Below, in pieces: positions 15,165 to 62,879 of a DNA stretch of 64,000 bases. The stretch lies in assembly GCA_003024785.1 (NCBI GenBank), contig PUQB01000163.1, forward strand, positions 237,613-301,612, written 5' to 3'. The translations under genes were made by a program, and so were the position numbers. The stretch comes from Selaginella tamariscina (taxonomy: Eukaryota; Streptophyta; Lycopodiopsida; Selaginellales; Selaginellaceae). The notes under the pieces are model-generated. The model did no database searches and was not told where the DNA came from. It saw nothing but the letters and a program-made list of their open reading frames with translations. Position 1 is the first letter of the stretch, and every line of letters starts with the position of its first letter.

Positions 15165-15192
15165 ATGCACGTTGTAACTAAAGGGCATGATA
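15165..15192 (+). repeat. Element 1 left terminal inverted repeat
   Basis: ATGCACGTTGTAACTAAA followed by GGGCATGATAC; it pairs with 24967-24993 and matches the gene-C-side end of Element 2 for another 50 or more bases inward. Confidence 0.75.
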
Positions 15193-15450
15193 CGTGAAAA
15201 TGGGAATATAAAATAAATTACTAATTAATACTTAAGTTTTAATTATTAATTAATCATTTAATTAATATGTAATTAAGCCTTAAATATTAATTAATTAATT
15301 AATTAATCCTTCAATAACCTTACTTAGTAAGGAATATTCCTAAAATATCTTAGAATATTCATATTATTCTAAAAATAGTTTACAATAATTAAGAAATACT
15401 ATCAAACATAATTACAAATGAAATCATTTTCTTATCAACATGTTAATTTT

Positions 15451-16630
15451 TTATAAATACTTTCTTCCTATCATAAGAGAAATCTTCATTTTGTCTAAAT
15501 CATCACTCTCCGGATTAATCAAATCATTTTGGTCAATATCTTGATGTTGTTGCCACCACCTAACACTCTCACGAATGCAATTGGGAGTTGCCATCCTTGT
15601 TAATACATAAGATGTGATAAAGAAGGTCTGCATAAAGGCTCATCTAAAAACTGACGTTCCTTAAGAATAATATTATAAAGCGCCCGGTTGCTATCCTTCA
15701 TTTTATAAAATTCAAAATCACGAGAAAGAAAAGCTTCAGGAAATGTATGATACGGTGGATACTGCTCACAAAAATTTTCGAGATTCTTCTTTCTGAGGCA
15801 CGTATCCAAGTAGTTCACTAGCTCATCCATGATATGTATCAGAATATGGATCGAAAGTGATTGGATGAATACAAGCAATGTTTTGGTTGAGCATAGCCTT
15901 CTGAGGAGAGTCGTCTACTACTAACATCTGTGCATTCTTCATTATCCTTAAGCGACTGATCTCCCCATGAGTCCCAATTATTCTTTCATTCTTGAAGAAG
16001 TATGGCTTGCTTTCCTTTTTATATTGTGAAATTCGAGAGGTTTATAACACATTCGCTGGTCAAAAATCCAATCTTTACGAATCACCTCTTCTGCAACACT
16101 ACAATGTTTCTTAAGCAAATTCAACAGCGGTGTTAAGTTGAATCTGCATGCATGACCAAATCCCCACAAGCGCACCCATCTCCTTAAGCTTTTGAAAGAG
16201 ACGATCCAACCCTGGACGAAAAATAATATCATATCGAAATTTACCATGACAAGGAATGAAATCTCCTTGTTTGATTTTTTTTTCCTATCCTCGGGCCTTT
16301 GTCGATGAAGCAGAACACCATTGACATCCAACAACACAATATGGCCATGAGTAACATGGATAGCGTTGCCTCTTGAATACTTTGCAAATCACTTGTTTGC
16401 TCCCTTTCACATTTATCCGTTGACACTATCTCGTTGCCTATCCCTTCATCATTTAATTGTACATCATCCTTACAAGATTCAGATATTGCATGCGCTGAAG
16501 AAATTGATTTCGGAACTGAAGCCAATAAAATGATGATGATGAAAAAACTGAAGTCCCCCATGGTAACGATGTTTTGAGCTGCATTATTATCCATTTCCTG
16601 CATGAACTCTGTCATTCTGACATGTGGCAC
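15451..16630 (-). pseudogene. Gene C copy 1: membrane-anchored FCP1/NIF-like HAD phosphatase
   Basis: Minus strand. The N-terminus has a hydrophobic segment (FSFFIIIILLASVP) near 16550, probably a signal anchor. About 75 residues later comes HAD motif I, LLDVNGVLLHRQRP (16335-16295), where FCP1/NIF phosphatases have a DxDGxL/DLNG-type core. IWSCM near 16160 is in motif II position, KDWIFDQRMCYKPLEF at about 16070-16020 fits the motif III region, and LVVDDSP near 15925 is motif IV. A tail (ELVNYLDTCLRKKN, later SVRWWQQHQDIDQND) runs to 15451. Several frame changes interrupt it. The family removes phosphate from proteins such as the RNA polymerase II tail; here the substrate is unknown. A second copy with the same hydrophobic start and the same tail lies in Element 2, so the gene belongs to the transposon. 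Confidence 0.7.
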
Positions 16631-16858
16631 AAAAATTGTCCAAACCCCTCTCTTACCTCATGGCAATGCTGAAAATCCATGTTCTCAATGTTTCATTACA
16701 TCTGCAAAATGATAATTAGCTGACCTTAAAATTATCAAGGTATATTATTTACCTTGTTAATGTGTGACCCATGTTTGAACTAAAAGCTTCATTAATCCTT
16801 GAGAATTTATTTTCTGTACAAATATAAACGAAATATACAAAAATGCCTTATGTTACAC

Positions 16859-19800
16859 TCATTTACAACTATTCGTCACTCTAAGAACCATTAACAATTC
16901 TTCTTCGCTATTACCTTCTGAGTGAGGCGAAGAAGGTCTAAGCCGCTTGTGAGATGGTTCAAGATCTTCTGTATCTTCTATTGATGTTTCCATGGGTAAT
17001 GGAGTGTGTGAATGTTCTGTACTCCTCGAGATAACTTCCGGTCTAATATCTGATTGAAGTTCGTCCTCAGACTCCGACATTGAACCAGATTCGTCTTCAG
17101 AGCTATCGCACTTATGGAGGGAACTTTCTCAAATACTCCTTTATGGTTTCGTTGGGGTAGTCAGTTGAGAACCTCTATCCACTTGTTCAGGTCCTCAACC
17201 ATGGTCTTATCCTTTTCAACGGCAAACACACATGTATCCCGAAGGTAACACTCCTTCAAGACGGACCCCCTAGTGCAGTAGTCAAAAACCCACGCATCAC
17301 TGTGAGGACCCCTGATCAAGTTGACGATGCTCCGTGCCGCTTGACTTGTAATGTTTGGATAACGTACATTGCCGAATACGTCACTCTCAGCTATCGGTGT
17401 ATCGGATGGAGGTTCAGGGCCGTTGGAGTGCAAACAGATGCCTGCCAGTCATTTGGAAGTTTGAAACTGTTTGGCGCATTCCTAACAACCAAGTGAACAA
17501 CCGAATCAATGCACTTCGGATCAGCATCATTCATATAAAATCCTGTCCAACGATGTTTATTCCTCTTGGCAAAGGCGAAGGCAAAGGTATCGGTGACATG
17601 AGCAAGAATCAAGAAATAAATACCTGAAAACGTAGATATCAGTCAAGAGTGCAAGTATGAATTCAATAATAAATACCTTCTTTGTACATGCTTGCACGCT
17701 AAGTTTCTCCACCAAATCCTCTAGTGTCCTGTCTGTCGAAGGATTTTTTGACACCCGCCGATCCATCACGAACAATTGAAACGGTTTCCTACAAGCAGTG
17801 ATGGTACCCCATAAAGTCTCCGAATCCAACAACAAACATCTGTAGGGCTTGTCGTGATTCGTAGCATCCTCCTTTATAAGGTTCAACTCGGTTCTCCGCT
17901 GCTGAAGGACTGCCATAAGAGAAGGCGTCATCGCAATGTTCTCCTTTTGGCGTTGGCGTGCAATAGATTCTTGCCCAGATCTTCCGATTGATTCACCCAT
18001 TCGACAAGCATATCATCGTTTGTCACATGCAAATATTTGCTGACCTCTTCGTATGTTGAAGCCGAGGTCCAACCCAGTTTGTGGCAGTGTATTCCCAACC
18101 ACTCCTTGAAGTGCCTGACCGTCTTCAACTCCATTGCCTTGAGATGAAAAGGAGAGGTGGGGCTGCTGTTGTTAATCTGTAATTTGCCATCAATCACCAA
18201 ATCAGCCAAGACTTCCATCTCCTCCATCGTTGTTCCATTTAAAGGCTTCAACCATGTGAGCTTGAAATCGTTGTCTACATCCTTTATAGATTGAACAGAC
18301 TTAGCCTTCGGCGTCTTACTGGGTTTCTTTGCAGACTTCTCTGAGGGCTCCTCTTCACTTGTCTGCTTCTTCTTCAGTGTTCCTTTTGCAAAGGATTCCA
18401 TAATCCCCAACCATTTGGCAAAGATCCTATCCTCGGGACAAGAAATCAACATCATCAAAAAGGATGTTTCCTTCCCGCCCACCTGGGCAAAATCAACTGC
18501 TACAATTTCTTCAACTCTCTAAAAAAAGACAGATTAATATACCGGCGAGATAAATCCCGCCCAAACAATTTGCTTACCCGGTAGTCCGCAGATTGTGTAT
18601 TCCCTGCGGTAGCTCTTTGTGGTCGCTGAAGAGATTCCCACACGGCTCGCGTGTGTTTGAACTTCTCCCATATTTTGCTGTTGTAGTGGTTGGTGTCTGC
18701 AGCGTCCCATTCCGCCGATAACTTATGGTACTGCTCGATTGTGAGATTCGGCTTCGCTAAAAACGCCGATCTTTTCGTCAGCTTCTCACGGGTATGCTCG
18801 GAAAGTTTTGTTGCCATCGTTCCTTTGTTGTGTTCGTCGAGAAGTCGTTGGGCTGCCGTTATTGTTGCTGGCCACTAATGATGTAGTACTTGACTGATTT
18901 TCTATTCTCCGTCTGAACCTTCCTCATTTGTTCCGGTGTTGTGATCCACACTTTGTCAGCGCCTTTGTTTCTCTCGTAGTATGCACACAAAACAGCATTA
19001 TGTGGAACGGTGTAAGAATTGTCGTCCTTCATCTTCTCCATGAGCTCAGCTACACGTTCCTGTTGAGTGGCCTGTAATTGAAGTTTGGGTTGACGCTGCA
19101 ATACTTAACCCTACACTCGTAAATCCTATCATCCAACATCATTTCCTTGTGGCTTATTGCAGCATGGGATGCCACAGGTGCAGCTGACAAAACGACGATT
19201 TTCTTTACGATCCGAATCAACATGTGTGATCCCCGATTGATGCTGTTCTAATGTTCTCGGCACACTCTTCCAGCTCCCGAAATTTTCTAAGCAAATTGAA
19301 CGTGATCTGTAAAGAACCTGAGACCAAGCCACCCTCTCAATCTCCTTTATGATGTCGCTGTGTTCTTCTTCAATGTGAAGAGGGACGATTGCTCCACTTG
19401 TGGATTTTCTGTATTGTGAAGCAATATCTCCTGAGAATACACCTACTCGATGAGTCTGAAGATCTTCGAAGTAGACATCCAGTTGGATCCCCTCCATAGA
19501 TGGGCTTTCGTTGAGTTGAAGAAGAACTCCACGGTCAACATCATTAGTGAACACGTGAACGTCATTATCCACAAGTCGACAAAACCACCCGAAATTAATG
19601 TTGTAACTGGCGACCTCTGGATCCGAGAACGTGACATTGGATGGAACAAGGCATATGTGTCGAGCATTTCAATCTGGGTTCACAGCATGCTTTCGGATGC
19701 TTGACTAGCACACCCACTTTCCATTGTTTTGCTTGTCCATGCGATGTGACAGAGGTTAGTTTGACAGCAACCATGGTTGTTCCAATGCGCTTCCCGTTTA

Positions 19801-19974
19801 GTTTGAAATATGGCCAAGTTGATTCCAGAATCCCCCTGCCCATCTCTTCTCCTGCTCTCGTCTTTAATGTCACCTCAATTCCACATCTGAATACAAAAAT
19901 GATTAGTTCAAGCACATATCCGAGTATAACAGATTTTATTTTAATTCTTACCCAGAATTTGACGACGACTCCAT
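16859..19974 (-). pseudogene. Gene A copy 1: multi-exon transposon protein with methyltransferase-like end
   Basis: Minus strand from MESSSNSG at 19974. A 65-bp GT-AG intron (19951-19887) leads into GIEVTLKTRAGEEMGRGILE and TMVAVKLTSVTSHG. Next come a segment with FGWFCRLVDNDVHVFTND, a Cys cluster (SCTCGIPCCNK) and a Lys/Glu-rich part (REKLTKRSAFLAK). An intron at about 18580-18522 contains a GGCGGGATTTATCTCGCC palindrome. The middle (HLKAMELKTVRHFKEWLGIH) is followed by DKPYRCLLLDSETLWG. The end has HSDAWVFDYCTRGSVLKEC with CVFAVEKDK, which resembles motif I of amino-methyltransferases of the permuted class, though the glycines are not canonical. It finishes with an acidic, Ser-rich tail (SEDELQSD) and a stop at 16859. 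Multiple frameshifts are present. Enzymatic function is unproven. Confidence 0.6.
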
Positions 19975-20307
19975 ACTAATGACTCGATCTCCTTGTTTAA
20001 TTAAATCGTCCTTCTGCAAAATAATACACTATGAATACAAATCATATAAAAACGCACACACACTTGTATAAACCCGAATATACAAAAATAATACACAGAG
20101 AGAAGGACGGAATTAACTGTCCAAAGCTCACATTTGTGCTAGTGCAAAAGAAAGATAACATTTCGTTTTAGAACCACCACAAATGTGAGCTCTGGACAGT
20201 TTTACATAGATTCCTAGCTTTTACTCGAAATATTATGATAAGATGATAAAAGTAAATAAAATGAGATATGCAACTTATATATACTAATACACATATATAT
20301 TCACATG

Positions 20308-21305
20308 GAAGGTGCGGCGGGATTAATCTCGCCACCCCTTCAATGCCTCCTGAAAGAGTGGGCGGGATTAATCTCGCCACCTTTCTGGAGGCCTTGAACG
20401 GGAGTGCGGAATTAATCTTGCCACCCTTCTCGGTCTCAGAGAGAACTTGGCAGGATTTATTTGGCACACCCCTTCAGGACTCCAGAAAGGAGGCGGGATT
20501 AATCTCGCCCACCATGTAAGGGATGGTAAATGAATCTCGCCACCCTTCCAGTCCCCTCCATTGGTATGTTGTAAACCTTCTACGTCTCAGACAGAAACGT
20601 TTGGGATTGGTCCGACTCACCAATGGAGGAAAAAGGAAGGGTGGCGGGATTCATCCTCCAACAGCATTGAAGGCTCGGCGGGATTAATCCGCTGGCCAAT
20701 GCCCTGGCGGAATCGGGCGGATTAATCTCCGCCTAGGCCCTTCAGGCAGGCCTTTGGAGCGGGATTAATCCTGTTGCCCAGGCCCTTCACTTGGGCCCTA
20801 GGCGGCGGGATTAATCCCGCCGAACGCCAATGCCATGTGCGGAATCGGGCGGGATTAATCCCGCCGCCTAGGCCCTTTAGGTAGGCCTTTGGCGGCGGGA
20901 TAAATCCGCCTGATTCCGCGCAGGGCATGCTGCGGCGGGATTAATCCGCCGAACGCTAATGCCCTGCACGGAATCGGGTGGGATTAATCCCGCCGCCTAG
21001 GCCCTTCATGCAAGCCTTGGTGGCGGATTAATCCCGCCGCCTAGGCCTTCAGACATGCCAATGGTGTGCGGAATAAATCCCGCCGAATTTCGTGCAGGGC
21101 ATCCGTAGGCGACGGGATTAATCCCGCCGTTATTCGGTTAGCCTCATGGGCGGCGGATTAATCCTGCCGCTCATGAGGCTAATCGAATAGCCTGCTGAAG
21201 GGCGGCGGGATTAATCTCGCCGCCGATGGGCTAACCATATAGCGGCGGGATTAATCCCGCCGCTACACATGTCTCACCATATAGCGGCGAGATTAATCCC
21301 ACTGC
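20308..21305. repeat. Array of about 22 GGCGGGATTAATCCCGCC palindromes
   Basis: Exact or near-exact copies of the 18-bp palindrome GGCGGGATTAATCCCGCC recur every 35-60 bases. Spacers are partly repeated (TAGGCCCTTCAGGCAGGCC-like) and partly unique. The 5' copies are the more decayed ones (ATTAATCTCGCC). The array lies in Element 1 directly upstream of gene A, whose start is about 330 bases away. The same motif occurs once in a gene A intron near 18540, and decayed in the Element 2 copy near 54915. Confidence 0.92.
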
Positions 21306-22089
21306 TACACACACACACACACACACACAGACACATAATATATATATATATTATATATATATATATGTATATGTATATGTGTGTGTAGGAGAGTGCGTGT
21401 GTGTGCCAGAGATACACAATCAGATAAAATTATACTGATACACACACACACATATGTATATGTATATGTATATTTATGTATAGTATATGTATATACAAGA
21501 GTGTGCGTGTGTGTGCGAGAGATAGATAAATAAATAAAATTATACAGATACTGGTACACATAATATATGTATGTATATGTACATAGGTATATATATATGT
21601 GTGTATATGTATATCGTGTTGTATGCGTGTGTGAAACAAATAAATCATACAGATAAACAAACACACACACACACATATAATATACAGGAGTGTGCGTGTG
21701 TGTGCGAGAGATACAATTAACAAATCAATAAAATTATACAGATACACACACACACACACATATATGTGTGTTGTGTGTGTGTGTTATATATTATATATAA
21801 TATATATATATATATTATATATATATAAGAGTGTGCATGTGTGTGCGAGAAATAGATAAATAAATAGATTATACACAGATACTGGTAACATAATATGTAT
21901 GTATATTATATGTATATAGGTATATATATATATATGTGTGTGTGGTGTGTGTATGTATATCGTGAGTATGCGTGTGTGAGCGAAACAAATAAATCATACA
22001 GATAAACAAGTGAGTGTGTGTACGTGTGCAAGAGATAAAATTAATAAATTAATAAAATTATACAGATACACAAACACAAACACACACAG

Positions 22090-22120
<31 letters not shown>

Positions 22121-22270
22121 GTGTGTGTGTGTGTATGTATACGAGTGTGCGTGTTGCGAGAGATAGAGATCTAAATTATATTATTAAGATACACACATAT
22201 AAATATATATGTGAATAAAAATAAATAAATAAATTCAGGAGTGTGCGTGTGAGAGAGAAGAGAGATCTCA
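21306..22270. repeat. Microsatellite-rich block, (CA)n, (TA)n and GTGTGCGTGTG units
   Basis: Dinucleotide runs alternate with a larger unit of roughly 280-300 bp holding GAGTGTGCGTGTGTGTGCGA, AGATAGATAAATAAATAAA and ATTATACAGATAC, repeated about three times. Long open frames (for example 21305-21676) are Tyr/His/Thr/Ile/Cys artefacts of the repeats. Confidence 0.9.
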
Positions 22271-23092
22271 CCTGTGTGTGAGAGAGAGAAGGAGATTTCA
22301 CAGCCGCCGCTCCGCCGCTTTGCTTCTGAAACCCTAGGAATATACCTAAATCCTAAAAGAAATAGAATATATATTAACCCTAATCGAATATTCCTTCTAA
22401 GAATATACTTAAACCCTAAAAAGAATAATTATAGATTCGCCCTAACGATATTCTTTTATTATATTATCAGCGTGTGCGTGTGCGTGGGTGTATCACATAC
22501 ACCCCAAGAATAAAAATCATGCAGGGTTTAACATGTGTGTGTCCATGAGAGTGTTAAAGTTTCACGTGCAGCGATACATATATACACACATAGTATTATA
22601 CACATAGACATACATACATATTAGTACATATTAATATTAAAGAGATAGAGTACATGATCATGCATGGTGGTGTGAAGAGTGATAATACATATTATGGATC
22701 ATGCATGGTGTGTATGTTTGAGAGAAGAAGTACATATTAATATGGATCATGCATGGTGTGTATGTATGAGAGAAGAGAAAGAGTGTTAACAAATTAAATT
22801 CATACACATTGCATATATTAGTACACACAATACATACACACGTGTATACACACAGACATACATACATATTACAGTGTAAATTCAATGTGTTACATAGGGT
22901 TTAGGGTTTAGGGTTAGGATGGATCATGCATGGTGTTATGTATGAGAGAATGAGTGTTATACACAGTATACATTATACATATTACATAATATTGTAACAT
23001 CAATACATATTATGGATCATGTATGGTGTGTATGTACGAGAGAAGAGACAGGCTACATATTATGGATCATGATCATGCAGGTGTGTATGTAT
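22271..23092. repeat. GGATCATGCATGGTG repeat region in Element 1
   Basis: Bases 22320-22450 carry several AAACCCTAA-like telo-box motifs. From about 22650 a unit with TACATATTATGGATCATGCA and TGGTGTGTATGTATGAGAG recurs about six times with variable spacing, up to the start of gene B similarity at 23097. No coding sequence is recognised. Confidence 0.8.
22896..22918. repeat. Short interstitial telomere-type repeat
   Basis: Three consecutive TTTAGGG-type units (AGGGTTTAGGGTTTAGGG, then TTAGG), the Arabidopsis-type plant telomere repeat, lie in the GATCATGCATGG block. Confidence 0.85.
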
Positions 23093-23096
23093 GAGA

Positions 23097-24480
23097 GCAA
23101 CACCTTCAACCTTTACATAATGCTTTCATGAACACGTCTGCACTTGAGGCTACTTGGGAATATGAGAGGCATTGTTAGCAGCCTGCACAAAAAACAGATG
23201 GCCCTGTTGAGAGTTCAGGTTCAGTGGAGGGATCTAGCTCAAATAGTGTACATGTGTCTCAACATCAAATAAGCTTCCTCGTCATTTGCTTTTACAGATG
23301 GATAATTGTGCAGGCGAGAACAAAAATAGGTAAATCATTTTACTTAAGGGTTTCTCAACTCATACTTTTATTTTCTAGATATGTGCTAGCATACTTGTCA
23401 ATGCTTGTTGCCAAAGTGTGTTTGAAACAATCACGCTCAGTTTTCTTATGGTTGGTCACACTCATGAAGATATTGATGCGTTCTTCAGCAAGGTCTTTAA
23501 CTCTACAAAAGGACAAGTGCACTTACCTTACCGCATATGATGAATCTTTTTGAAAACTGCATCTCCAAAAAAAGTTGTGCTTTACTTGTGACTGAGGTGC
23601 CAGACTTCAAAAAATTTCTCAAGGAGTATATAAAAGAGGGGAGTGATTCTTTAGTTGGTCACCTTGTGCCGCTACAATTCTTTTTCTCTATACGAGATGG
23701 TATACCTATTATGCAGTATAAGTTACGGCATCAGAGCATGAGTGGTTACCAAAAGAGGGGTTAATGCTCTTCAAAAGTGGAGAGAATGGAAAGCCACTTC
23801 TCCAGAAGACAACCAGACCTATTTCCATTGAGTGCCCAGCTCAAGGAAAAGAGGTTATTAATTGATGACATCAAAAAATATGTGGCATGGGTTCAAAAAT
23901 CGATGCCAAAGAATTCTGATAAGGCAACTGGTTACTCAGAACTATATAAGCATGTGGTCAACTATTGGGAGACTGTTGTTCGAGAGTTGGAAGGGCCTAT
24001 TGTCACAAGTACAGAATTGCAACACCCTTTTTGGCCTAAAACAAGGTGGCGAGAGGAGATTGAAATGACATCACTGAGCACAGACGACGTAGAAGCTAGT
24101 AGTGATGTGGAAGTGCAAACCCCACACTTTGTTGGACAAAGGAACCAAAAACCTAAAGCATACTTTGATTGCTGCCAGGATCTTTAAAAACTAATGATGG
24201 TTCTCATTACTCCAGATGCATTATATAATCAACCTATTTGGATGGGTCAAATTATCGGCACATTTGAAGTAATCACAAAAAATAGTATTGTTAAGGTTGC
24301 ATGGTTCAAACCACAAAAAAGGGACACGAGAAGGAGAGCGAAAGATATAATGGATGCCTAGAGAAAACATGGTCTCCCAATTAAAAAGACCCAGCATGTT
24401 TTATAAATGTTAAATCCATTCGTATAGGTGGATGTCAAGAAGCGTTGATAAAGTCACAATTAACAAAACTACAAGGGAAT
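23097..24480 (+). pseudogene. Gene B copy 1: DUF7869-like protein, candidate transposase
   Basis: The block QMDNC at about 23295, then ENKNR, is split by a 50-bp intron (about 23329-23379, GTAAAT to TTTTCTAG) from YVLAYLSMLVAK. Then SFLMVGHTHEDIDAFFSKV follows (frame broken at about 23440-23490), then LVGHLVPLQFFFSIRDGIP at about 23660-23710 and KKYVAWVQKSMPKNSDKATG at 23870-23930. It ends after AWFKPQKRD near 24320. MDN...GHTHEDID is the hallmark of the uncharacterised DUF7869 family. The spaced Asp and Asp/Glu residues would suit an RNase-H-like DDE nuclease, so I suggest it is the transposase; that is inference. The N-terminus is missing or lost in the repeat block. Several one-base frameshifts and one TAG occur. 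Confidence 0.65.
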
Positions 24481-24993
24481 GTATGTTTTCTGAAGCTTAA
24501 AGCAATTACAAAATTATAATCATAATTATTATAAACTCTTTAATAATAGTACCAAATTGTTTATTTAACTATATAAATTTAAAAAACGATATGGAAGATT
24601 GACTATATATTATAGGATTTTGTATATTATATATATATTATTACTACTACAAATTTTAATTAATAATGTTATATTTAAATATTAATATTTTAATAACAAC
24701 ATCAATATTTATATAATGTACCTTTTATGCTCTTCCTTAATTGTTATATTAGGCAATATATTATATAATTTAATACTTTCTACTTTTATAATGTTATTAA
24801 TTTTTGTTCAATGAATGTTATAATTTATTAAAGGGTCGAATACAAAATAGAATATTTTAAAGAATATTCTGTTTTCAAACATATATTCTAAAGAATATTC
24901 CTTTAATATTAGAAAATGTTAATTAAATAGCTAAAATTGTTAATTATTAGGAAATGGGACTATAGCCATGCCCATTTTAGTTATAACTTGCAT
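24481..24993. other. AT-rich subterminal region of Element 1
   Basis: Non-coding A/T-rich DNA with repeated AGAATATTC motifs, matching 31760-32330 of Element 2 in inverted orientation. Confidence 0.65.
24965..24993 (-). repeat. Element 1 right terminal inverted repeat
   Basis: Read on the minus strand it starts ATGCAAGTTATAACTAAAAT and continues GGGCATGG. It matches the gene-B-side end of Element 2, including the TTAATAATTAACAATTTTA-like subterminal sequence. Confidence 0.75.
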
Positions 24994-25009
24994 ATATATC
25001 AAAACTTTC

Positions 25010-38264: not shown

Positions 38265-38276
38265 GGAGGAAGTGCT

Positions 38277-47888: not shown

Positions 47889-47899
47889 CTACTGGACAC

Positions 47900-49161
47900 C
47901 GGTCAAGTACGCAACAACGCAGCAGCGCAAACAACTCGTATTACGATGTAAGCCATACTGCATGGTGTCAGGTATACTATATAAGAAAGGCAAAGATGAA
48001 GTGTTAAGGAGGTGTGTACCAATGGAGGAAGTGCAGACCGTATTACGGGAAGCTCATTCAGGAGAACATGGTGGACATTTTGCAGGAACATTAACCGCAC
48101 AAAATATTACAGTCTGGATTATGGTGGCCCACGTTATTCAAGGACGCTATCGACTATTGTCAAAAGTGTTTGAAGTGCAATGAACACCAACCAGCTCCAT
48201 CAACCATTACATCCAACGGAACCATTAGCTCCATTTATGAAATGGGGAATGGATTATGGGACCAATCAATCCTAAAAGTAGCAAGCGGAATCAATATATA
48301 TTGGTACTCACGGATTATGTTACTAAATGGGCAGAGGCTATCGCATTACGAGATTGTCGGCAATACGGGTAGCTAAGTTTATCTACGAGAATATCGTAGT
48401 ACGATTTGGCGCTCCAATGGAACTTATCAGTGATCAAGGAACTCATTTCGTCAACAACGTCATCAAAGTACTTTGCAACGAATATTTGGTAAAACATTAC
48501 ACCTCTACTGCGTATTATCCACAAGGAAACGGACAGGCAGAGGCTACTAACAAAATACTGAAGACCGTACTAACCAAGATAGTAAACACTAATCGTAAAA
48601 ACTGGGATGAAAAACTTCCATCAGCATTATGGGCATACCGTACTACGTATAAAGTGGCACAAAGTTTACTCCATTTCAACTTACATACGGATTGGAAGCT
48701 ATTACGCCTATAGAGTATATCATACCATCATTGGGATGTCACTTGAATACGGCATTGGGGAAGCAGAGCAAGTTAAGCAACGACTACTACAACTGAAAAA
48801 CTTGATGAAAAACGGCAACAAGCAGTTTTTAATATACAAGCTATACAAACGTATTAAGGCATGGCACGATCGATTACGACGAGTACAACGACCCATATTC
48901 CGAGTCGGAGACATGGTATGGCATTATCAAGGGAATCTTCGACCGATTGGTCATAAATTCAAGTCCAAATGGCATGGACCATATATAATTACCGACATAC
49001 GAGATAACAACACTGTCACATTGATGGATGCTACAACACGGGTTATACTTACGACGAATACAAATCGAATACGGAAATATACAACTAACAAGCCAGAGGA
49101 AGATCTGACAATGACCGGAATACGAACGGCACGATACAACGGACACAGAAATATGTATTAA
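47900..49161 (+). pseudogene. G2 integrase, frameshifted
   Basis: Zinc-binding part: LREAHSGEHGGHFAG near 48050. The first catalytic Asp region is frame-disturbed near 48240; LISDQGTHFVN carries the second near 48430 and YYPQGNGQAEATNKIL the Glu near 48510. The C-terminus has PIFRVGDMVWHYQGNL and GPYIITDI near 48980 and ends at 49161. Confidence 0.85.
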
Positions 49162-49213
49162 AACTAACACGGAATACGATCAAAACCGTAACTCGGAAGA
49201 GACAAGGAAAAAT

Positions 49214-51907: not shown

Positions 51908-52440
51908 TGTTAGGAGCATAGTTAGACATTAGTAGAGTTTTTTGTTATTTCATGGGCAATATAATGGGAAAATATCAAAAACAATATATATTGTGGAAAA
52001 CCGAGAGTGGGAAGAATATATCGGAGTACGAGTTTACTAATGCAATACCGCAATACGGATCATCACCGCAATACGATATCAGCAGAGTACGACATTTATG
52101 GATAAGGATAAGAAGGAGTTACAGTAACTGAATGGATAAGGCTAGGAAGTAATTATGATAACTGCTAATACGGGATCTAGAGTACTGGTATAAAAGACCA
52201 GATTAGGACTAGAAGGGCATCCGAGTATAACTGTTCTTTTGTACCATGTACCGTGCATGGACATAATATAACTGTGACGGGATCCATAGTACTGCTACCT
52301 GCTATACACCTTGCCATCCTTATCATTTTCCTGACTTTTTGATGTCTGATTACGTCTTTAACTTAATCCGGTAGACCCTTAGTACGGGTTTATCAACAGC
52401 AATCCTATCGATGTACGGAGGTAGGAAATTACGGTTAACA
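51908..52440 (+). repeat. G2 3' LTR
   Basis: 533 bp, preceded by the polypurine tract CTGGGGGA, starting TGTTAGGAGCATAG and ending GGTTAACA. Confidence 0.88.
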
Positions 52441-52534
52441 ACCTTCGCCATAGCGTATAATTCGAGCATGATTCCTGGTTTTCCACTCCTCATTGGTGTT
52501 GTCCTCTCCTTCCCACCGGTCACTCATCTCGAAC
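52441..52534 (-). pseudogene. G1 gag N-terminus
   Basis: On the minus strand from 52534, right after the primer-binding site: MSDRWEGEDNTNEEWKT, then RIIRYGEG, cut by the G2 insertion at 52440. Confidence 0.75.
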
Positions 52535-52552
52535 CTCGCTCTGATACCAAAT

Positions 52553-52757
52553 TGTTAGGCACCACTATGTACAATCTAAAGACCCTCACAAGACCACCTG
52601 ACTCCCCCGAGCTATCTCTAGTCTCCACACACTGCTCCCAAGGAAGGCTTCCAAAATAGTGTGCCCTTAATTCTCTCTTAGATCTAGGTATAGTCTTAGG
52701 AAATTCTAGCTTATACCTTTTGGAGAATATTTTTGATTCGTTATATGGGTCATAATA
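52553..52757 (-). repeat. G1 5' LTR
   Basis: 205 bp; ends CCTAACA before the tRNA-Met site. It shares about 134 bp at high similarity with 32657-32790. Its first bases read TATTATG, so the canonical TG has changed to TA. Confidence 0.85.
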
Positions 52758-53043
52758 GGTTTGCACTTCCACATCACTATTGGCTTGTATGTCATTTTGC
52801 ATTGATGTCATTTCAATCTCCTTTTGCCACCTTGTTTTTAGGTCAAAAAGATATTGTAATTCTGTATGTGTGACAGGCCCTTCTAACTCTCAAACAACAG
52901 TCTCCTAATAATCGACCAATAGTTTTAAGTAACTAGTTGCGTTATAAGAAATTCTTTGGCATCGATTTTTGAACCTATGTCACATTTTTTTATGCCATTA
53001 ATAATAAACTCTTGTTCTTTGAGTTGGCCACTCAATGGAATAG
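52758..53043 (-). pseudogene. Gene B copy 2, middle part
   Basis: Minus strand; equals Element 1 bases about 23830-24125 (for example the segment coding EIEMTSMQNDIQANSDVEVQ). It is bounded by G1 on the left (GGTTT duplication) and by F on the right (AATAG at 53039-53043). Confidence 0.78.
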
Positions 53044-54005
53044 GTATCAGAGGTTTTACCTGGTGCCACAAAGGCGGCTTGCCAGGTGCCAACCCTAGAA
53101 TCCCCTCTCTGGAAACCCCACGGAATCTGGTAAAATAACCCATATTAGGAACCCAAGCCTTTAGGAACTCAAACCCCTAACTGACTAAGCCCACGAACGA
53201 GACTCACCTTGTGAATCAAGATACACGGACTAGCCGAGCCTTAGGTGTTGTTCCTAGCTTGGGGTGGTTGAGGCGGCCAGAGCAAGGCCTCAACCACTAG
53301 TTTTGCGGAACGTGAACTCGGGCAATGCCTTTGAGCTTGCAAGCAGGTTTTCGGACCAAGGAATCTGACTAACTCCTTAGAAGTGACGTGCCCCTATCTC
53401 AAAGGCAAGATCTTACCAACAATAAGGATAGTCTAACCCTAGGGTGGGTTGTACCCCTGTCGTGTGGAAGTTTGGGCAGCACAACGGAGAGTTGCACCTT
53501 AACGACATAAGCTTAGCTTGCACCGGTAGGAGGTTAATGAGCTCTCTTTTGAACCCAGGAAGCCTCACTACATATACTCTACCTTATTTATGTGACGGAC
53601 CCCCCTCCCCCCCCCATTTACCTAAGTGAGTAAGTGGGCTGGCACGGAAATGCCAGCCCTTAGAGAAAATAGTTGTCCTAACTTAACCCTAAACCTAACC
53701 CCTAGGGGTGGGGTTAGGGCAACCCTAGGGTTAGGTCAACCCTAGGAATTATTTTGACAAGCTATACTTTTGCAAAGAACCCTAACCTGGAACGTCAAAC
53801 CGAGGGAGAGTTTCTAGAAGGTAAGTTCTAGCTTCGCCTAGAGTTTCCTGCAAATACCTAATGACACCCGGCTGGACCATCACTAGATACCCAAGTGCAC
53901 TAAACGGGCCTGTTTCCTACTACATCTAGGGTTCGTCACACAACTCGGTAAGTAACAACAGTCGAACCCCAAAGTAAAGGGTCGAGTCATAGTAAAAACT
54001 ATGAC
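53044..54005 (-). mobile_element. Repeat F: 0.96-kb insertion in gene B, related to the LTR of X
   Basis: Non-coding, with CTAGGGTTAGG/CAACCCTAGG motifs. It is clearly similar to 58200-58920 and to 61170-62015. AATAG lies at both edges (53039-53043 and 54006-54010), which indicates an insertion. The right edge, read inward on the minus strand, starts GTCATAGTTTTTACTATGAC. It probably is a truncated or solo LTR of the X family. Confidence 0.65.
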
Positions 54006-54830
54006 AATAGAGTTTGGTTGTCATTATTGGAGAAGTGGCTTTCCATCCTCTTCACTTTTGAAGAGCATTAAACCCTCTTTCAGTAACCACTCTTGTTCTG
54101 ATGGACATAACTTGTACTGCAAAATAGGTATACCATCTTTTATGGAGAAAAAGAATTGTAATGGCACAAGGTGACCAGTTAAAGAATCACTCATTTTTTT
54201 GATATACTCCTTGAAAAACTTTTTGAAGTTTTGCACCTCAATCACTAGTAAAGCACAATTTTTTTTTGGAGATGCAATTTTTAAAAAAATCCATCATAGT
54301 GATAAGGTAAGTGCACTTGTCCTTTTGTAGAGTTGGAGATCTTGCTGAAGAATGCATCAATATCTTTATGAGTGTGACCAACCATAAGGAAACTGAACGT
54401 GATAGTCTCAAACACACCTTTGGCAATAAGCATTAATAAGTATGCTAGTACGTATCTAGAAAATAAAAGTAAGTATGAACTTGAGAAACCCTTAACTAAA
54501 ATGATTTACCTATTTTTGTTCTTGCTTGCACAATTATCCATTTGTAAAAGCAAATGATGAGGAAGCTTATTTAATGTTGAGGATACATGTACACTATGTG
54601 AGCTAGATTCCTCTATTGAACTATAACTCTCAATAGGGCCATCTGTTTTTTGTGCAGGTTGATGACAGTGCCTCTCATATACCTAAGTAACCTTAAGTGC
54701 ATACATGTTCATGAGAGCATTATGTAAAAATTGAAGGTGTTGTTTTTTCACTTTGAAATCACTCATATGACTTGTTTGTGAATGGGCTTCAAGGTTTTTG
54801 AAACACATGACCAACAAAGAAATTTTTTTT
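54006..54830 (-). pseudogene. Gene B copy 2, 5' part
   Basis: Minus strand; matches 23097-23800 of Element 1. It shows NCASKNKNR, the same intron at about 54510-54455, VGHTHKDIDAFF near 54385-54350 (one change from GHTHEDID) and LTGHLVPLQFFFSIKDGIPI near 54180-54125. The start region reads MSDFKVKKQHLQFLHNALMN near 54765. Frameshifts differ partly from those of copy 1. Confidence 0.78.
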
Positions 54831-54912
54831 GGCCAATAAATTATCTATTGCAAAGAAAATTTGGCCAATAAATTTATCTAATATAAAATATCTAAATTAT
54901 CTAAGAATTTTT

Positions 54913-56568
54913 TTTTTGGCAGGATTTATCTCATCAGTATATTAATCTGTTAATTATTCAATCTAGAGAGCCAAAGAAATTGCAATAGTTGATTTGCCCA
55001 TGTGGGTGGGAAGGAAAACATCTTTCTTGATAATGCTAATTTCTTGCTTCAAGGACAAGGTCTTCGCCAAATGGGTGGGGTCATGAAATCCTTCGTGAAA
55101 GAAACACTAAAGAACAAGCAAACGGGTGAAGGGAGCCCTTCAAAAAGTTTGCAAAGAAACCCAATAAGACTCCCAAGGCTAAGTCTATTCAAGCTACGAA
55201 GAATGTAGACAACAACTTCAAGCTCACATGGTTGAAGCCTCTAAACGGAACAACAGTGGAGGAGATGGAAGTGTTAGCTAATTTAGTGGCTGATGACAAA
55301 CTATAGATTAACAACAGCAACCCCGCCTCTCCTTTTTCATCTCAAAGCAATGGAGCTGAAGACGATTAGACACTTCAAGTTGAGAATACATTGTCATAAA
55401 TTGGGTTGGACCTCGACTTTAGCATATGAGGAAGTCAGCAAATATTTGCATGTGACAAACAATGATATGCTTGTCCAATGGATGAACCAATTAAAAGATC
55501 TGGGCAAGAATTTATTGCTTGTCAACATCAGAAAGGAGAACATCATGATGACGCTTTCTCTTATGGCAGTGCTTCAACAGTGGAGAACTAAGTTGAACTT
55601 TATAAAGGAGGACGTTACGAATCATGACAAGCCCTACAGATGTTTGTTGTCGGATTCAGAGACGTCATGGGGTAACATCATTGCATTTAGGAAATCGTTT
55701 CAAATGTTCATGATGGATCAACGGGTGTTAAAAAATCCTTTTTCAGATAAATCGCTAAAAGATTTAGCGGAGAGCTTAGTTGTGCAAGCATGTAAAAAGA
55801 AGGTATTTATTATTTAGTTTTTGCACACTTATATATACTTACATTTCAGGTATTTATTTCTTGATTTTCACTCATGTCACTAATACCTTTGCCTTTGCCT
55901 TCGCCAAGAAGAATAGACATTGCTGAATTGCATTTTACATGAATGATGTTGATCCTATGTGTATTGATACGATTGTTCACTTAGTTGTCAGGAATGAACC
56001 AAATAATTTCAAACTTCCAAATGATTGGCCAGGTATCTATTTGTGCTCCAATGGGCCTGAACCTCCATCCAATACACTGATAGTTGAGAAACATATTTGG
56101 TAATGTACGTTATCCAAACATTACAAGTCAAGCTACATGAAGCATCATCAACTTAATCACGGGTCCTCACAGTGATGCATGGATTTTTTACTATTGCACT
56201 AGGGGATCCGTCTTGAAGGGTGTTACCTTTGGGATACATGTGTCTTTGCCAGTGAAAAGGATAAAACCATAATCAAGGACTTGAACAAGTAGATAGAGAG
56301 GTTCTCAAGTGACTACCCTAACAAACCCATACAGGAGTATTTGGGAAAGTTCCCTCCCGAAAAGTGCGATAGCTCTGAGGAGAAATCTGGTTCAATGTCA
56401 GAGTTTGAGAACAATCTTGAATTAAATATTACACCAAAAGTTATTTCAAGGAGTACAGAATATTCAATTACTCCATTGACCATGGAAACATCAACAAAGA
56501 AAACAAAAGATGTTGAACGAACTTCCAAGCGGCTAAAACCTAGTGAAGAAGAATTAATAATGTGTTGA
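54913..56568 (+). pseudogene. Gene A copy 2, lacking its first exons
   Basis: Starts inside the intron that carries the palindrome (here GGCAGGATTTATCTCATC) and continues in the same order as copy 1: GGKENIFLD, then FHLKAMELKTIRHFK, SKYLHVTNNDMLVQWMNQLK, DKPYRCLLSDSETSWGN, an intron, HSDAWIF-like and CYLWDTC segments, and an acidic tail (SSEEKSGSMSEFENNLEL, MCstop at 56568). The exons equivalent to 18600-19974 are absent. Several stops and frame changes make it non-functional. Confidence 0.72.
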
Positions 56569-56806
56569 TAGAGTGACAAATAGTTGTAAATGAGTGTAAC
56601 ATAAGGCATTTTTGTATATTTCATTTATATTTGTATAGAAAATAATTTTTCAAGGATTAAAGAAGTTTTTAGTTCAAACATGGGTCACACATTAACAAGG
56701 TAAATAATAGACCTTGGTAATTATAAGGCCAACTAAGATCATTTTACAAATGTAATAAAAGTCAAGAACATAGATTTTCAACAATGGCATGAGGTAATAG
56801 AGGGGT

Positions 56807-57381
56807 ATGACAAAAATTTCTTGTGCCACATGTCAAATGGACAAAGTTCATGCAAAAATGAATAATAATGCAGCTCAAAACATCCTTACTATGGGGATCA
56901 CTTTAGTTTTTGCATCACTATTTATATTGTTTTTAATTCTTGAATTACTTTCTTTAGCGCCTACAATATCTGAATCTTGGAAGGATATGTACAAATAAAT
57001 GATAAAGGATCAATAACAATATAGTGTCAAAAGATAAATGTGAAAGGGACCAAACAAGTGAGTTGCAAAGCATTCAAGAGGCAACATTGCCCCTTGTTAC
57101 CTATGGCCATATTGTGTTGTTATATGTCAATGGTGTTTTGTTTCATCCCACAAATGCCTAAGGATAGGGAAAAAGAAATCAAACAGGGAGATTTCATTTG
57201 TTATCATGATAAATTTTAACATAATATCATTTTCCGTCCGGGGTTGGACCATCTTTTTCAAAAGCTCAAGGAGATGGGTGCACTTGTGGAGATTTGATCA
57301 TGCATGCAATTTTATAACCTGACGCCATTGCTAAATTTGCTTAACAAACATTTTAGTATTGCAAAAGAAGTGATTCTTAAA
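56807..57381 (+). pseudogene. Gene C copy 2, 5' part
   Basis: Equivalent to 16630-16090 of Element 1. The conserved NNAAQNILTMG is followed by the hydrophobic segment LVFASLFILFLILELLSLAP. Beyond it the phosphatase motif I region (VNGVLFHP) and the motif II region are present in broken frames. It is cut at 57381 by X. Confidence 0.7.
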
Positions 57382-58922
57382 TAATAGAGTTTTAATCCGA
57401 AGGGCCAACATGTGGCTGCCTAATGGCTATTCGGTGTCATCACCCTGTGTGAACAACGCTAAGTCTTCCAAGATGACCATAAGAGTCTGACTCAAATGCC
57501 TAATTAAATAGAAGACTGAGCGTCCTACCCTAAGTCCCTTAGAATGACCATCCCTCAAACCCTAAAGGATATCTTGAGTAAACTTTAAAATTCTATTCAA
57601 TAGACCTAGGCCCTAACCCCACAAAGGAGATGTGTCTCACATATACTTCTATGATAAAGTTAAGGCATCATCACTTACCCCTTAAAGAATCACCCTTATT
57701 CGGGAGTATAACCCCTTTAGGGCGACAAGGGGTACCTTGAACCATAACTAACCCTTAAGGGTTTGAATGGCTAAGTCACACCCTAGTCCTAAGGATAGTA
57801 CTTAGTGAGGACACATGGATGGACACGAGTGTCATGCTAAGCAAACTCTCTAAGGCTAGGTTTGGATAACCTAAGTACATGACCTTGCGAGTGCTTCACG
57901 AAAGGGCTCCTACTAACAAGTATAGATAGAACACTTCCCTAGCCAAGTGTGCCAAAGCACACCTAGTTACAAGACCTAACCTCCCTTGAGCGGATGCCCA
58001 AGGCTTAGCACCCTAGTGCAAACACAAGCATGTTTGTTTGCTAGAGTATCCAACCCTTTAACAACAAACCCATGACACAACCCAAAGGGCGTGCCTTGGG
58101 CATTGTATCATGTGATGTCTAGCCTAGTGTCACATCTCCATGTGACACTGCCTTCCTTGATGTGGGCTATCATGCCATAGCCCTTAGATTCAAGAGTTGC
58201 ATCAAATGTCACAAACGTGGCTTCTAAATGCCAACTCTAGAACCCCTTAATGAACCTTCATGAACTGGGTAACGTGAACTTATTAAACAAGATCCCACGT
58301 CAATAATTGGACAAGAACATGGATGTGCCTTACTTAGTTATGAGTGTCACACTTAGCTTGACGTGGAGGAGGAGGTTGGAGATAAGCCTCAACCTTTGTC
58401 GCTTGGAACGTGCATTCCAACAAACCTTCCAATCATGGATTTGCCAACGTTAAGGGTAGGTTACCCTAAAGGTGAGACGTATCCCTGTTATCTTAAAGTT
58501 AGGGTAGCACAACAGGTTGTACCTTAACGACACAAGTGAAAGCTTGAATTGGCAGAAGAGAAATGAACTTAGTCGTGAACCTAGGAGCTCTCCTACATGT
58601 ACTACTTAATATATGTGACAGAGGCCCCCACCTGTTTTCTTGTTTACATAAGTGGGCTGGCACAAAATCTCATTCTCAGAGGGAATATACTTGGTGAGTT
58701 AATTAATAACCCACTGATCCCTAAACCCTAACCTAAGGCATGGGGTTAGGGCAACCTAAGGTTAGGTCATCCCTAGGGTTGTTTCTACCCATATTTGACA
58801 TGCTGAACTCACCGAAACCACCCAAAAGCTTAACTAGGACATAAAAATTAGGTTAAAATTTTTTTTAAATGGAAGTTCTAACTTCACCTAGAGTTTCTTG
58901 CAAATGCCTAATGACACCCATG
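57382..58922 (-). repeat. X left (3') LTR, truncated
   Basis: Matches 60318-61890, for example AGGGCCAACATGTGGCTGCC near each start and TTCGGTGTCATCACCCTGTG after it; the last 110 bases of the partner are missing. Confidence 0.8.
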
Positions 58923-58929
58923 CCTTAGC

Positions 58930-59213
58930 TCTGTCACGGGTGCATGTGTGAGACATCTCCTTTGTGAGGTTAGGGCATGAGCATGTCTAAGTCTATTAAG
59001 ATAGGATCCTATCTACTTGGGATATCCTCTAGGGTTCGAGGGATGATCATTCTAGGGACTTAGGTAAGTCTTTTGTTTAACTAGGCATTTGATTCAAACT
59101 CTTGGGGTCATCTCGGAAGACTTAGTGTTTCTCACATAGGGTGATGACACCGAATGACCACTAGGCAATCACGTGTTGACTCTTCAGGTTAAAACTCTAA
59201 TAATTAGTATCAA
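58930..59213 (+). repeat. Inverted LTR fragment inside X
   Basis: Reverse complement of 60318-60600. It ends AAACTCTAATA and is followed by ATTAGTATCAAAGCC, a second primer-site-like sequence in plus orientation. Confidence 0.8.
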
Positions 59214-60317
59214 AGCCGTATTTTATGCGGTCAATAAGACTGTTTAAAGTATAGTGTGTTTTAGGGTTTAGTTAGTTCTAAATTTTTAAAATACTCTATC
59301 ACTTTCAGCAAACACATCTGAATTCTATGCAAAGAGTTGGTCATGAGATATAACTCTTTAGAGAACACCTATTTCATAAGTGGGTGTGGGTTATGGACTC
59401 CAATATCGAAGGTAGCACTTGGAAGGCAATTTCCAAGTTGTATGCCAAGTTTAATTTACTGAACACTTCCACAAAACATGATGAGCTAGTTTGTTATGGT
59501 TTACAAACTAAGTCTTATGAAGTGAATCATGTAATATACCAAGTTTACACATTATTGAAAAATTTTCGTTTTTTCTTTAAAGTGTTTGAATTTAGGATAA
59601 CACATGATTTGGAAACATGTCAAGATTCAATATCAGGTTAGGCAATAGTGTTCAAACAGGGAAAGGCTTATGCTAAATGTGCATCCTTAACTTCGGAAGA
59701 AGGGGCATATTCAAACATAAGAGTGAACACTACATTTTGACAAAAGTGTAAAATAAATTCTCATTATAGTGCATGTTTCAAGAGTGTAACTCCAAAAACA
59801 GATTATAGTGATGAACTTATAATACAACGGAATGTTAGATATTAACATATGATGAATATGTTAAGCAATTGATTTGAACTTCTAATGTAATTAAAAATTG
59901 TTCGATGTTTGCAATATTTTAATGACACTAGCTACAAGTAACATTAGGTCGAATAGTTTATTACATTCAAGTCACCTAATTTGAACATGTACAACTTGAA
60001 ACCTTAATTAGCTATAAATGTGCACTTTGTATTTAAGTTGGCTAGCTTGACTAACTTGATTATGTAGTTGTCTCATATGAGATCATGAAAGAAACTTGGG
60101 TAATAGCTTGAGGATTCGTTTTCTTATCGATATAGTTTTGAGGTAGATGGCATGATCTACCATAAACAAAAATGTTGAAAACATACGTTTACATTTTTCA
60201 ATTTATTGAGTGTTAAAGGACTTGCATAGTGAGGGCGTCCGAAACACACTTGTGCATTTTCATTGCTAACTCTTTAAGCTTAAAATTTGTAACATTGTTT
60301 GCAACTCTGATACTAAT
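59214..60317. other. Internal region of X
   Basis: A/T-rich, with an 85-codon open frame at 59384-59641 (MWVMDSNIEGSTWKAISKLY, YQVYTLLKNFRFFFKVFEFR) that I cannot assign. No gag, RT or integrase motif is visible. Confidence 0.45.
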
Positions 60318-62020
60318 TGTTAGAGTTTTAACTCGAAGGGCCAACATGTGGCTGCCTAGTGGCCATTCGGTGTCATCACCCTGTGTGAACAACACTAAGT
60401 CTTCCAAGATGACCACAAGAGTCTGACTCAGATGCTTAGTTAAATAGAATACTTAGCGTCCTATCTTAAGTCCCTTAAAATGACTGTCCCTTGAACCCTA
60501 AAGGATGTCTCGAGTAAACTTTAGGATCCTATCCAATAGACCTAGACATGCTCATGCCCTAACCCTACAAAGGAAATGTGTCTCACATATACCCCCTGAT
60601 AAAGCTAAGGCATCGTCACTTATCTCTTGAGGAATCACTCTCATTTGGGAGTACAACCCCTTTAGGGCGATAAGGAGTACCCTGAACCACAACTAACCCC
60701 TAAGGGTTTGAGTGGCTAAGTCACACCCTAGTACTTAGTGAGGACACGTGGGCAGACATGAGTGTCCTACTAAATAAACTCCCTAAGGCTAGGTTTGGAT
60801 AACCTTAAATATACCTTGCGAGTGCTTCATGAAAGGGCTCCTACTAACAAGTATAGGTTGTTCAACCTCTGGATTCCAATGAAAACACTTCCCTAGCCAA
60901 GTGTGCCAAAGCACACCTAGTTACGAGACCTAACCTCCCTTGAGCGAATGCCCAAGGCTTAGCACCCTAGTGCAAACACAAGCATGCTTATTTATTAAAG
61001 TATCCAACCCCTTAGCGACAAACTCATGACACAACCCCAAAGGGCATGCCTCAGGCGTTGTATCGTGTGATGTTTAGCTCAATGTCACATCTCCATGTGA
61101 CACTGCCTTCCTCGATGTGGGCTATCATGCCATAGCCCTTAAATTCAAGAATTGCATTAAGTGCCACAAACATGGTTCCTAAATGCCAACTCTAGAACCC
61201 CTTAGTGAACCCTCAAAAATTGAGTAATATGAACCTATCAAATAAGATCCCACACCCACAGTTGGACAATGACACGAATGTGCCTTGTTTAGCTATGAGT
61301 GCCACACTTAACTTGACATGGAGAAAGAGGTTGGAGACAAGCCTCAACCTCTATCCCTTGGAACATGCATTCCGACAAGACCTTCTAATCATGGATTCAT
61401 CAGTGCTAAGGGTAGGCTATTCCGAAGGTGGGACGTACCCCTATTATATAAAAGTTAGGGTGGCATAACAAAGGGTTGTACCTTAATTACACAAGTTAAA
61501 GCTTGCACCGACAAAAGAGCAACGAACTCAGTCATGAACTCAAAAGCTCTCCTACATGTGCTACTTAATATATATGATAGAGCCCCCCTCCCGTTTTCAT
61601 GTTTACATAAGTGGGCTAGCACGAAATCTCATTCCCATAAACAATATACTTGGTGAGTTAATTAATGACCCACTGACCCTTAAACCCTAACCTGAGGGGT
61701 TTAGGGCATGGGGTTAGGACAACCCTAGGGTTAGGGCAACCTTAGGGGTGTTTCTACCCAAATCCGACATGCCGAACTCATCAGAACCACCAAAATCTAA
61801 TTGGGACACAGAAATTAGGGTAAGAGTTTTTTAAATGGAAGTGCTAGCTTCACCTAGAGTTTTTTGCAAATACCTAATGACACCCAATCGGATCATCACT
61901 AAATATTCAAGTGCACTAAGCGAGCCTGTTTCTTTTACACCTAAGGCTTATTAATATAATTCGGTAGGTACCAATACTCAACGTCCAAAGTAAAGAAGAG
62001 TCATAATAAAAACTATAATA
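60318..62020 (-). repeat. X right (5') LTR
   Basis: Starts at its inner end TGTTAGAGTTTTAACTCG next to the primer site; rich in CTAACC/GGTTAGG motifs; no coding potential. Confidence 0.8.
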
Positions 62021-62480
62021 ATAAAGATTGAATTTTTGACTAGTAAATATGTTATAAACCTCTCAAATTCTATGATGTAAAAAAAGAAAGAAACCCATAC
62101 TTCTTCAATAATGAAAGATTAATTAAGCTTCAATGGGAGATTAATTAATTAAGAATAATAAAAAACGCACATATCTTAGTGGTAGATGACTCTCCTCAAA
62201 AAACTATGTTCAACCAAAATATTACTTATATCCATCCAATCACTTTCGATGCATATTCTAATATTAATATCATTGATGAATTAGTGAAGTACTTGGATAT
62301 GTGCCTCAAAAAGAAGAATTTTGAAAACTTTTGTAAGTAATATTTATCATGTAAAACATACCTTAACGTTTTTTTTTCCTCATAATTTTGAATTTTATAA
62401 ATTAAAGAAAAGCAATTGGCCGCTCTACAATATTATTATTAAGGAACTTTAATTTTTAAATAAGCCTCTATGCACTTTTG
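62021..62480 (+). pseudogene. Gene C copy 2, 3' part
   Basis: Resumes exactly where 57381 stopped. It shows LVVDDSPQKTMFNQN near 62178-62225 (HAD motif IV) and IIDELVNYLDMCLKKKNFEN near 62265-62330, matching gene C of Element 1. Stops and frame changes are present. Confidence 0.75.
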
Positions 62481-62851
62481 TTCTTATCATAAATTATTGA
62501 TTAAAATGATTCGATTAATTAATATAGTGATGATTTAAACAAAATGAGGAGATTTCTTTATACGGTTAAGGAAAAAGTAATTACAAATAATTAACAAGTT
62601 GATAAGGAAATCATTTCATTTGTAATTATGTTTGATAATATTTTTTAATTATTGTAAAATATTTTTATAGTGAAGAATAATATAAATGTTCTAAAATATT
62701 TTAGAAATATTCTTTATTAAGTAAGGTTAATCAAGGATTAATTTGATAATTAATTAATAATTAAAACTTAACTATATATTATTTAAATAATTAAATTAAT
62801 TAAAACTTAAGTATTAATTAGTAATTTATTTTATATTCCTATTTTTATGTA
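62481..62851. other. AT-rich subterminal region of Element 2
   Basis: Matches 15193-15450 of Element 1 in inverted orientation (AGAATATTC-like motifs, TTAATTAATTAA runs). Non-coding. Confidence 0.65.
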
Positions 62852-62879
62852 TCATGCCCATTTTAGTTACAATGTGCAT
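62852..62879 (-). repeat. Element 2 right terminal inverted repeat
   Basis: Reverse complement of the left end; followed by ATTT. The inward subterminal sequence matches that of the left end of Element 1 (gene C side). Confidence 0.82.

Follow-up and report, generated by a model that had tools for sequence, protein, structure and literature searches.

An abundant terminal inverted repeat DNA transposon of Selaginella tamariscina with a probable DUF7869 transposase

Introduction

A stretch of 64,000 nucleotides from Selaginella tamariscina (assembly GCA_003024785.1, contig PUQB01000163.1; C464:237613-301612), referred to here as the window, contains two structures with related inverted ends, Element 1 (E1) and Element 2 (E2), and raises the question of what kind of mobile element they represent and which of its genes could move it. 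A first-pass annotation, made from the letters of the window, described them as two copies of an unrecognised terminal inverted repeat (TIR) DNA transposon with 4-bp target duplications and with genes for a DUF7869-like protein, a methyltransferase-like protein and an FCP1-like phosphatase (here genes A, B and C). The analysis below covers the whole assembly, 300.7 Mb in 1,391 contigs, which holds duplicated stretches and runs of N and in which some frameshifts may be assembly errors. It makes it very likely that both elements are inactive members of a TIR DNA transposon family of very high copy number, whose probable transposase is the DUF7869 protein.

Results

Ends, target duplications and an empty site

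The end motif ATGCAYRTTGTAACTAAAAT (≤3 mismatches) matched the window at 15165 (+), 24993 (-), 31736 (+) and 62879 (-), against 0.08 matches expected from shuffles, and GGGCATG lay directly inward of it at all four ends; the inverted pairs and the flanks on either side of E2 (ATTT/ATTT) and E1 (ATAC/ATAT) were thus as first described. Two copies proved to be a large underestimate. A 20-base TIR motif (≤2 mismatches) gave 5,023 matches genome-wide (2,572 forward and 2,451 reverse), against 21 (13 and 8) for its reversed control, and the 27-bp TIR was present in many copies in the motif search and sampled loci, with ATGCA termini in most. Candidate counts from these searches are not element counts, and raw copy counts are inflated because the assembly duplicates stretches, as seen from identical elements with identical flanks on two contigs (L031/L032, L105/L013, L109/L110 and L107/L112). 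Among 40 further sampled ends, 20 carried the B-type subterminal sequence GGCTATAGTCCCAT, 18 the A-type GATACRTGAAAATG and two neither, a split that shows the element to have two distinct ends, A and B.

The family includes short copies of about 245 bp. In all five examined, 102–115 bp of the A-end was fused to 113–132 bp of the B-end, a structure that identifies them, at the level of sequence, as internal deletion derivatives of the longer element. When one short copy was searched against the genome, 40 of the 2,448 first-look candidates were scored. Since sampling 40 TIR ends caught a short copy just once, most ends found by the motif sit in longer or broken copies.

Target duplications were read in 44 short copies for which the two ends could be located, comprising 37 from the best 40 matches to one short copy (38 were fetched and L142, whose left end was unreadable, was dropped) and seven others. 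A perfect 4-bp duplication was found in 34 of the 44, in agreement with the first-pass reading; these represented 22 different sequences, mostly AT-rich and with no fixed motif (TTAA in two). No copy had a perfect duplication of 5, 6 or 8 bp, and one had a perfect duplication of 7 bp, in an AT-repeat flank. Shuffling left and right flanks gave a mean of 1.12 perfect 4-bp duplications per 44 (maximum 6). Three pairs with shared flanks may be assembly duplicates, and after merging them 32 of 41 were perfect. The ten copies without a perfect duplication were L107, L112, L120, L121, L131, L133, L134, L138, L140 and L016, with one end probably misplaced by the script in L121, L134 and L138. Among longer copies, six of seven had a perfect 4-bp duplication, the exception being E1; eight further long elements yielded one end pair within the fetched windows (C84), and the C102 flank has N.

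An empty site was recovered for the long C136 copy (C136:234988-248713; 13,726 bp), which lies inside a gypsy pol sequence between GAAG flanks. Its joined flanks, with one GAAG kept, align across the junction to the gypsy copy in the window (approximately 36315-36318); the alignment has one gap, of a single base, which lies five bases past the insertion site. The ends therefore coincide with an empty site, as shown for one copy by comparison inside this genome. The first-pass annotation also asked for more copies that have both TIRs and have internal genes in common, and these were found in this genome.

Gene A encodes the probable transposase

Long copies measure about 14 kb. Read from its B-end, the C136 copy contains gene A (pointing toward the B-end), then a first palindrome array, a middle part rich in AT and CA that includes telomere-like TTTAGGG words, a second array, and genes B and C (pointing toward the A-end). 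In gene A, a GT..AG intron of 54 bp separates an open stretch of 659 codons from a second exon, and the spliced reading matched the DUF7869 Pfam family with 158.5 bits (E 2e-46), bearing out the first-pass assignment; the broken E1 piece scored 18.6 bits, under the curated cut-off of 26. At each of the 12 loci fetched, an element end lay about 1.3 kb from the DUF7869 gene.

The fold prediction was made on a homolog, P0083, and not on the broken copies of the element itself, and gave an RNase H-like fold. Across 39 aligned homologs the invariant aspartates were D309 and D312 (strand 1), D434 (after strand 4) and D476 (in the following helix); on this model we infer that they are catalytic and that the protein is a DDD (three-aspartate) transposase. 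The predicted fold, the invariant aspartates and the constant proximity of an element end together make the DUF7869 protein probably the transposase of the element. In the gene pieces submitted to the Pfam scan, no transposase domain of another kind was found. A Foldseek comparison with viral models placed transposases in the top two rows, none significant. Judged from the predicted structure, Mos1 of the Tc1/mariner group and retroviral integrases have an RNase H-like catalytic core in common with it but aligned structurally with only 8–12% identity, and Tc1/mariner elements differ further in their 2-bp TA duplications (PMC10741241).

All 11 organism-named proteins among 120 listed gene A relatives were from bryophytes (Riccia, Physcomitrium and Ceratodon), and P0081, P0094 and P0096 are DUF7869 proteins of Physcomitrella. 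In viral contigs, 63 stretches fitted the DUF7869 pattern and none was confirmed. In prokaryote genome contigs, three of 180 were confirmed, all on contigs filed under environmental bacteria (two metagenome-assembled genomes (MAGs) and one isolate, AVDCRST_MAG81), and these are probably misbinned eukaryote DNA. A contig filed under a cyanobacterial genome (L143:34-4091) has a 963-codon DUF7869 frame that is 52% identical in its best segment to a Ceratodon protein and is probably misbinned moss DNA; no clear TIR was seen by eye in its repeat list. On a contig filed under a Bacteroidetes MAG, a gene of the DUF7869 type that is more distantly related (L144:5715-6251) apparently contains introns and is probably of eukaryotic origin.

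Genes B and C

A genome search with gene B gave 6,738 first-look candidates, of which 126 were scored, with 191 matches, whereas a search of 5.8 billion proteins gave no relative at E ≤ 0.001 (5,278 candidates). Gene B had no Pfam match, its only NCBIfam hit was to a proline--tRNA ligase, far below cut-off, and a PDB sequence search with a 249-aa part returned nothing. Its structure prediction, from an eight-row alignment, reached a mean predicted local distance difference test (pLDDT) score of 31.9, too poor for a fold search. By eye, one stretch resembles the glycine-rich motif of DNA methyltransferases. Of the ten fetched loci, eight were read in frame, and all eight have MDRRVSK at the position where a DNA methyltransferase should have DPPY. 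The methyltransferase assignment of the first-pass annotation was set aside, being without support in these sequence-level searches of Pfam, NCBIfam, PDB and the protein collection; a very remote relation is conceivable, the model being too poor for comparing folds.

The phosphatase assignment stood. Gene C of the C136 copy matched PF03031 with 48.5 bits (E 1e-12; cut-off 21.8) and the E1 piece weakly, with 16 bits, under the cut-off; on this match its product is a predicted HAD phosphatase of the NIF/FCP1 type. The genome search gave 5,621 candidates, of which 150 were scored, with 150 matches and listed open frames of 206–408 residues. A protein search found no relative outside this genome at E ≤ 0.001 (312 candidates), a PDB sequence search returned nothing and NCBIfam gave only a dullard-like phosphatase, far below cut-off. 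Among the matches listed, gene C was seen by eye 0.8–1.3 kb downstream of gene B on the same strand at at least 11 places.

Palindrome arrays

The 18-bp palindrome GGCGGGATTAATCCCGCC occurs in 27,128 exact copies in the genome, its reversed control in none. In the copies read, arrays of it sit upstream of both gene sets (gene A; genes B and C). In the C136 copy, the stretch from position 4167 to 9054 holds 28 sites (≤3 mismatches), with a further one at 10797, and E1 has, besides its array, one more site inside gene B. Spacing was 42–46 bp in 51 of the 66 printed spacings below 200 bases (four sources). The core GATTAATC was kept at each position in 79–85 of 85 sites while spacers varied, a conservation inflated because sites were picked by similarity to the motif. 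On contig C1 a palindrome cluster lay 2.1–2.4 kb upstream of six of six DUF7869 matches listed, but several clusters there, for example those near 8.6–13.1 kb, 130 kb and 178 kb, had no DUF7869 among the matches listed. The flanks of the L143 gene show a different palindrome, TTTAGCTCGA.TCGAGCTAAA, at seven sites (≤5 mismatches); in 96 of 100 simulations no such site arose.

The two copies in the window

E1 is about 95–98% identical, outside repeats, to the longer C136 and C2 copies (Table 1). It lacks approximately C136 positions 2309-6600 and hence most of gene A exon 1. E2 is about 79–90% identical to the same copies where alignable, lacks approximately C2 positions 1988-10417 and contains nested insertions. 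As read from the assembly, neither E1 nor E2 can encode a full transposase. Their arms are homologous but inverted, E1 running from A-end to B-end and E2 from B-end to A-end; the mirrored gene order noted in the first-pass annotation is real, but simply reflects this opposite orientation.

Table 1. Features of the two elements and the empty site in the window
Feature	Position	Strand	Remarks
E1	15165..24993	-	Shortened copy; from ends and alignment to C136 and C2
E1 left flank	15161..15164	.	ATAC, imperfect 4-bp target duplication
E1 right flank	24994..24997	.	ATAT, imperfect 4-bp target duplication
E1 A-end TIR	15165..15189	+	2 bases short of the 27-bp form
E1 B-end TIR	24967..24993	-	Followed inward by B-type subterminal GGCTATAGTCCCAT
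E1 gene C remnant	15603..16657	-	Predicted NIF/FCP1-type HAD phosphatase, frameshifted
E1 gene B remnant	16862..19975	-	Orphan accessory protein, frameshifted, without family match
E1 GGCGGGATTAATCCCGCC palindrome array	20316..21303	.	13 sites (≤3 mismatches), 3 exact
E1 gene A (DUF7869), exon 1 tail	23098..23329	+	Ends DNCAGENKNR
E1 gene A intron	23330..23378	+	GT..AG; predicted from sequence and the C136 copy
E1 gene A exon 2 remnant	23379..24480	+	GHTHEDID block and C-terminal part, frameshifted
E2	31736..62879	+	Older copy with nested insertions, orientation opposite to E1
E2 left target duplication	31732..31735	.	ATTT
E2 right target duplication	62880..62883	.	ATTT
E2 B-end TIR	31736..31762	+	
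E2 A-end TIR	62853..62879	-	
E2 gene A remnant, C-terminal piece	32322..32522	-	
Later insertion(s) in E2	32657..52757	.	Include gypsy-type retrotransposon coding sequence, foreign to the element; from homology break
Empty-site position in gypsy copy	36315..36318	+	CCTC; C136 counterpart GAAG = CTTC on this strand; from C136 alignment
E2 gene A remnant	52758..54815	-	Pieces 52758-53044 and 54006-54815; insertion between at 53045-54005
E2 gene B remnant	54911..56565	+	
E2 gene C remnant	57025..62337	+	Split by insertion at 57382-62021

Within the E2 insertion at 57382-62021, direct repeats of about 1.5 kb (57385-58920 and 60321-61886; 83% identical) look like the long terminal repeats (LTRs) of a small retroelement, and a second pair of direct repeats (42896-43464 and 51946-52440; about 94% identical) may be the LTRs of a different retrotransposon that also lies nested within E2. 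Outside the elements, a 111-bp inverted repeat (13210-13320/14718-14828; 94% complementary), with relatives at about 7.6, 8.8 and 29.4 kb, may belong to another short element family.

Discussion

Compared by published descriptions, the element is likeliest to be filed under the Sola superfamily, a placement we favour with some reserve. Sola elements have a DDD transposase, a 4-bp target-site duplication (TSD), lengths of 2–9 kb with some >15 kb, TIRs of 11–1124 bp and a record in Physcomitrella, and Sola2 elements have AT-rich TSDs and chimeric passengers (PMC10741241, PMC9033089, PMC3627910). The present element shares, by description only, the inferred DDD transposase, the 4-bp TSD, the large size, the passenger genes and TIRs of a reported length (27 bp, a weak criterion given that range). 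The first-pass statement that its gene content is unlike any TIR superfamily was therefore too strong.

A possible alternative, which we hold to be less probable, is that DUF7869 elements form a superfamily of their own, with the same cut-and-paste transposition and 4-bp stagger and with no specific relation to Sola. Pfam lists DUF7869 as of unknown function, and the term appears in no paper of the literature searched, which covers few subscription papers and so gives weak evidence of absence. The Sola descriptions consulted (PMC10741241, PMC3627910 and PMC9033089) mention neither genes B and C nor palindrome arrays. Against this, the checkable published Sola characters all recur here, and Sola1 is recorded in the moss Physcomitrella (PMC10741241, PMC9033089), which also has DUF7869 proteins.

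Under either placement, the gene A product would act as a DDD transposase: it would recognise and bind the ends, cut the element out and reinsert it, leaving a 4-bp stagger at the target. The palindrome arrays would be binding sites of a regulator, and tentatively, by analogy, this regulator could be the gene B product, acting in anti-silencing like VANC of VANDAL. VANDAL elements are of Mutator type, with VANA as their transposase. In Arabidopsis, VANC binds short motifs that form tandem repeats in noncoding parts of its own elements and removes methylation, and these motifs differ among related elements (PMC5735166). Common to both systems are an extra element-coded protein and noncoding tandem arrays of one motif, partly upstream of VANA21 in VANDAL (PMC5735166) and upstream of genes A and B in C136. 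The VANDAL motif, however, is a nonamer, YAGTATTAY (PMC5735166), rather than an 18-bp palindrome, and VANDAL TSDs are longer than the 4 bp found here.

Alternatively, the arrays may bind a host factor, for example of E2F or homeodomain type, so that the element would follow the host cell cycle or development and gene B would have a different role; we regard this, too, as possible without preferring it. The GGCGGGA half-sites resemble E2F sites and GGATTAATCC homeodomain sites; against this, the palindrome differs from the E2F consensus at one base or more. The finding of another palindrome at the flanks of the L143 DUF7869 gene, a single case, better fits an element-specific partner. Amplification of E2F sites by transposons is documented in Brassicaceae, where miniature inverted-repeat transposable elements carry them (PMC12595863). 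Those elements share with the present one the transposon-driven spread of one short regulatory motif, but here the motif forms ordered arrays inside long elements and its binding protein is putative.

The compound proposal that DUF7869 marks a non-Sola transposase lineage with its own palindrome-reading control or anti-silencing through gene B, independent of VANDAL and with lineage-specific palindromes (about 27,000 exact copies here), appears unlikely. Several known groups do not fit. Target sites of piggyBac and Kolobok are TTAA, in contrast to the varied perfect duplications found here. Ginger1 needs TGTNR termini and CCGG-like TSDs (PMC2836005), as opposed to mostly ATGCA termini and AT-rich TSDs here.

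Returning to the DUF7869 transposase, the idea that DUF7869 is itself a passenger, with mobility of the ends supplied by a different transposase from elsewhere, is very improbable: genes B and C do also ride in the element, but the predicted fold of gene A is transposase-like with correctly ordered acidic residues, an element end adjoins the gene at every locus fetched and the Pfam scan of the gene pieces found no rival transposase domain. A Mutator/VANDAL-type element, suggested by the large size, accessory genes and motif arrays like VANC targets, is scarcely credible given a TSD of 4 bp where 7–12 bp is expected of Mutator (PMC10741241) and no Mutator domain found in gene A by Pfam.

The Pfam domain of unknown function DUF7869 thus gains a likely role, that of a DDD transposase whose ends and 4-bp target duplication are known, and, since all organism-named relatives listed are from bryophytes, bryophyte DUF7869 genes may be annotated as transposon genes. 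The palindrome arrays illustrate how identical sites that resemble protein-binding sites can be spread through one genome by a transposon, in tens of thousands of copies, and they provide a case in which convergence with VANC anti-silencing can be tested.

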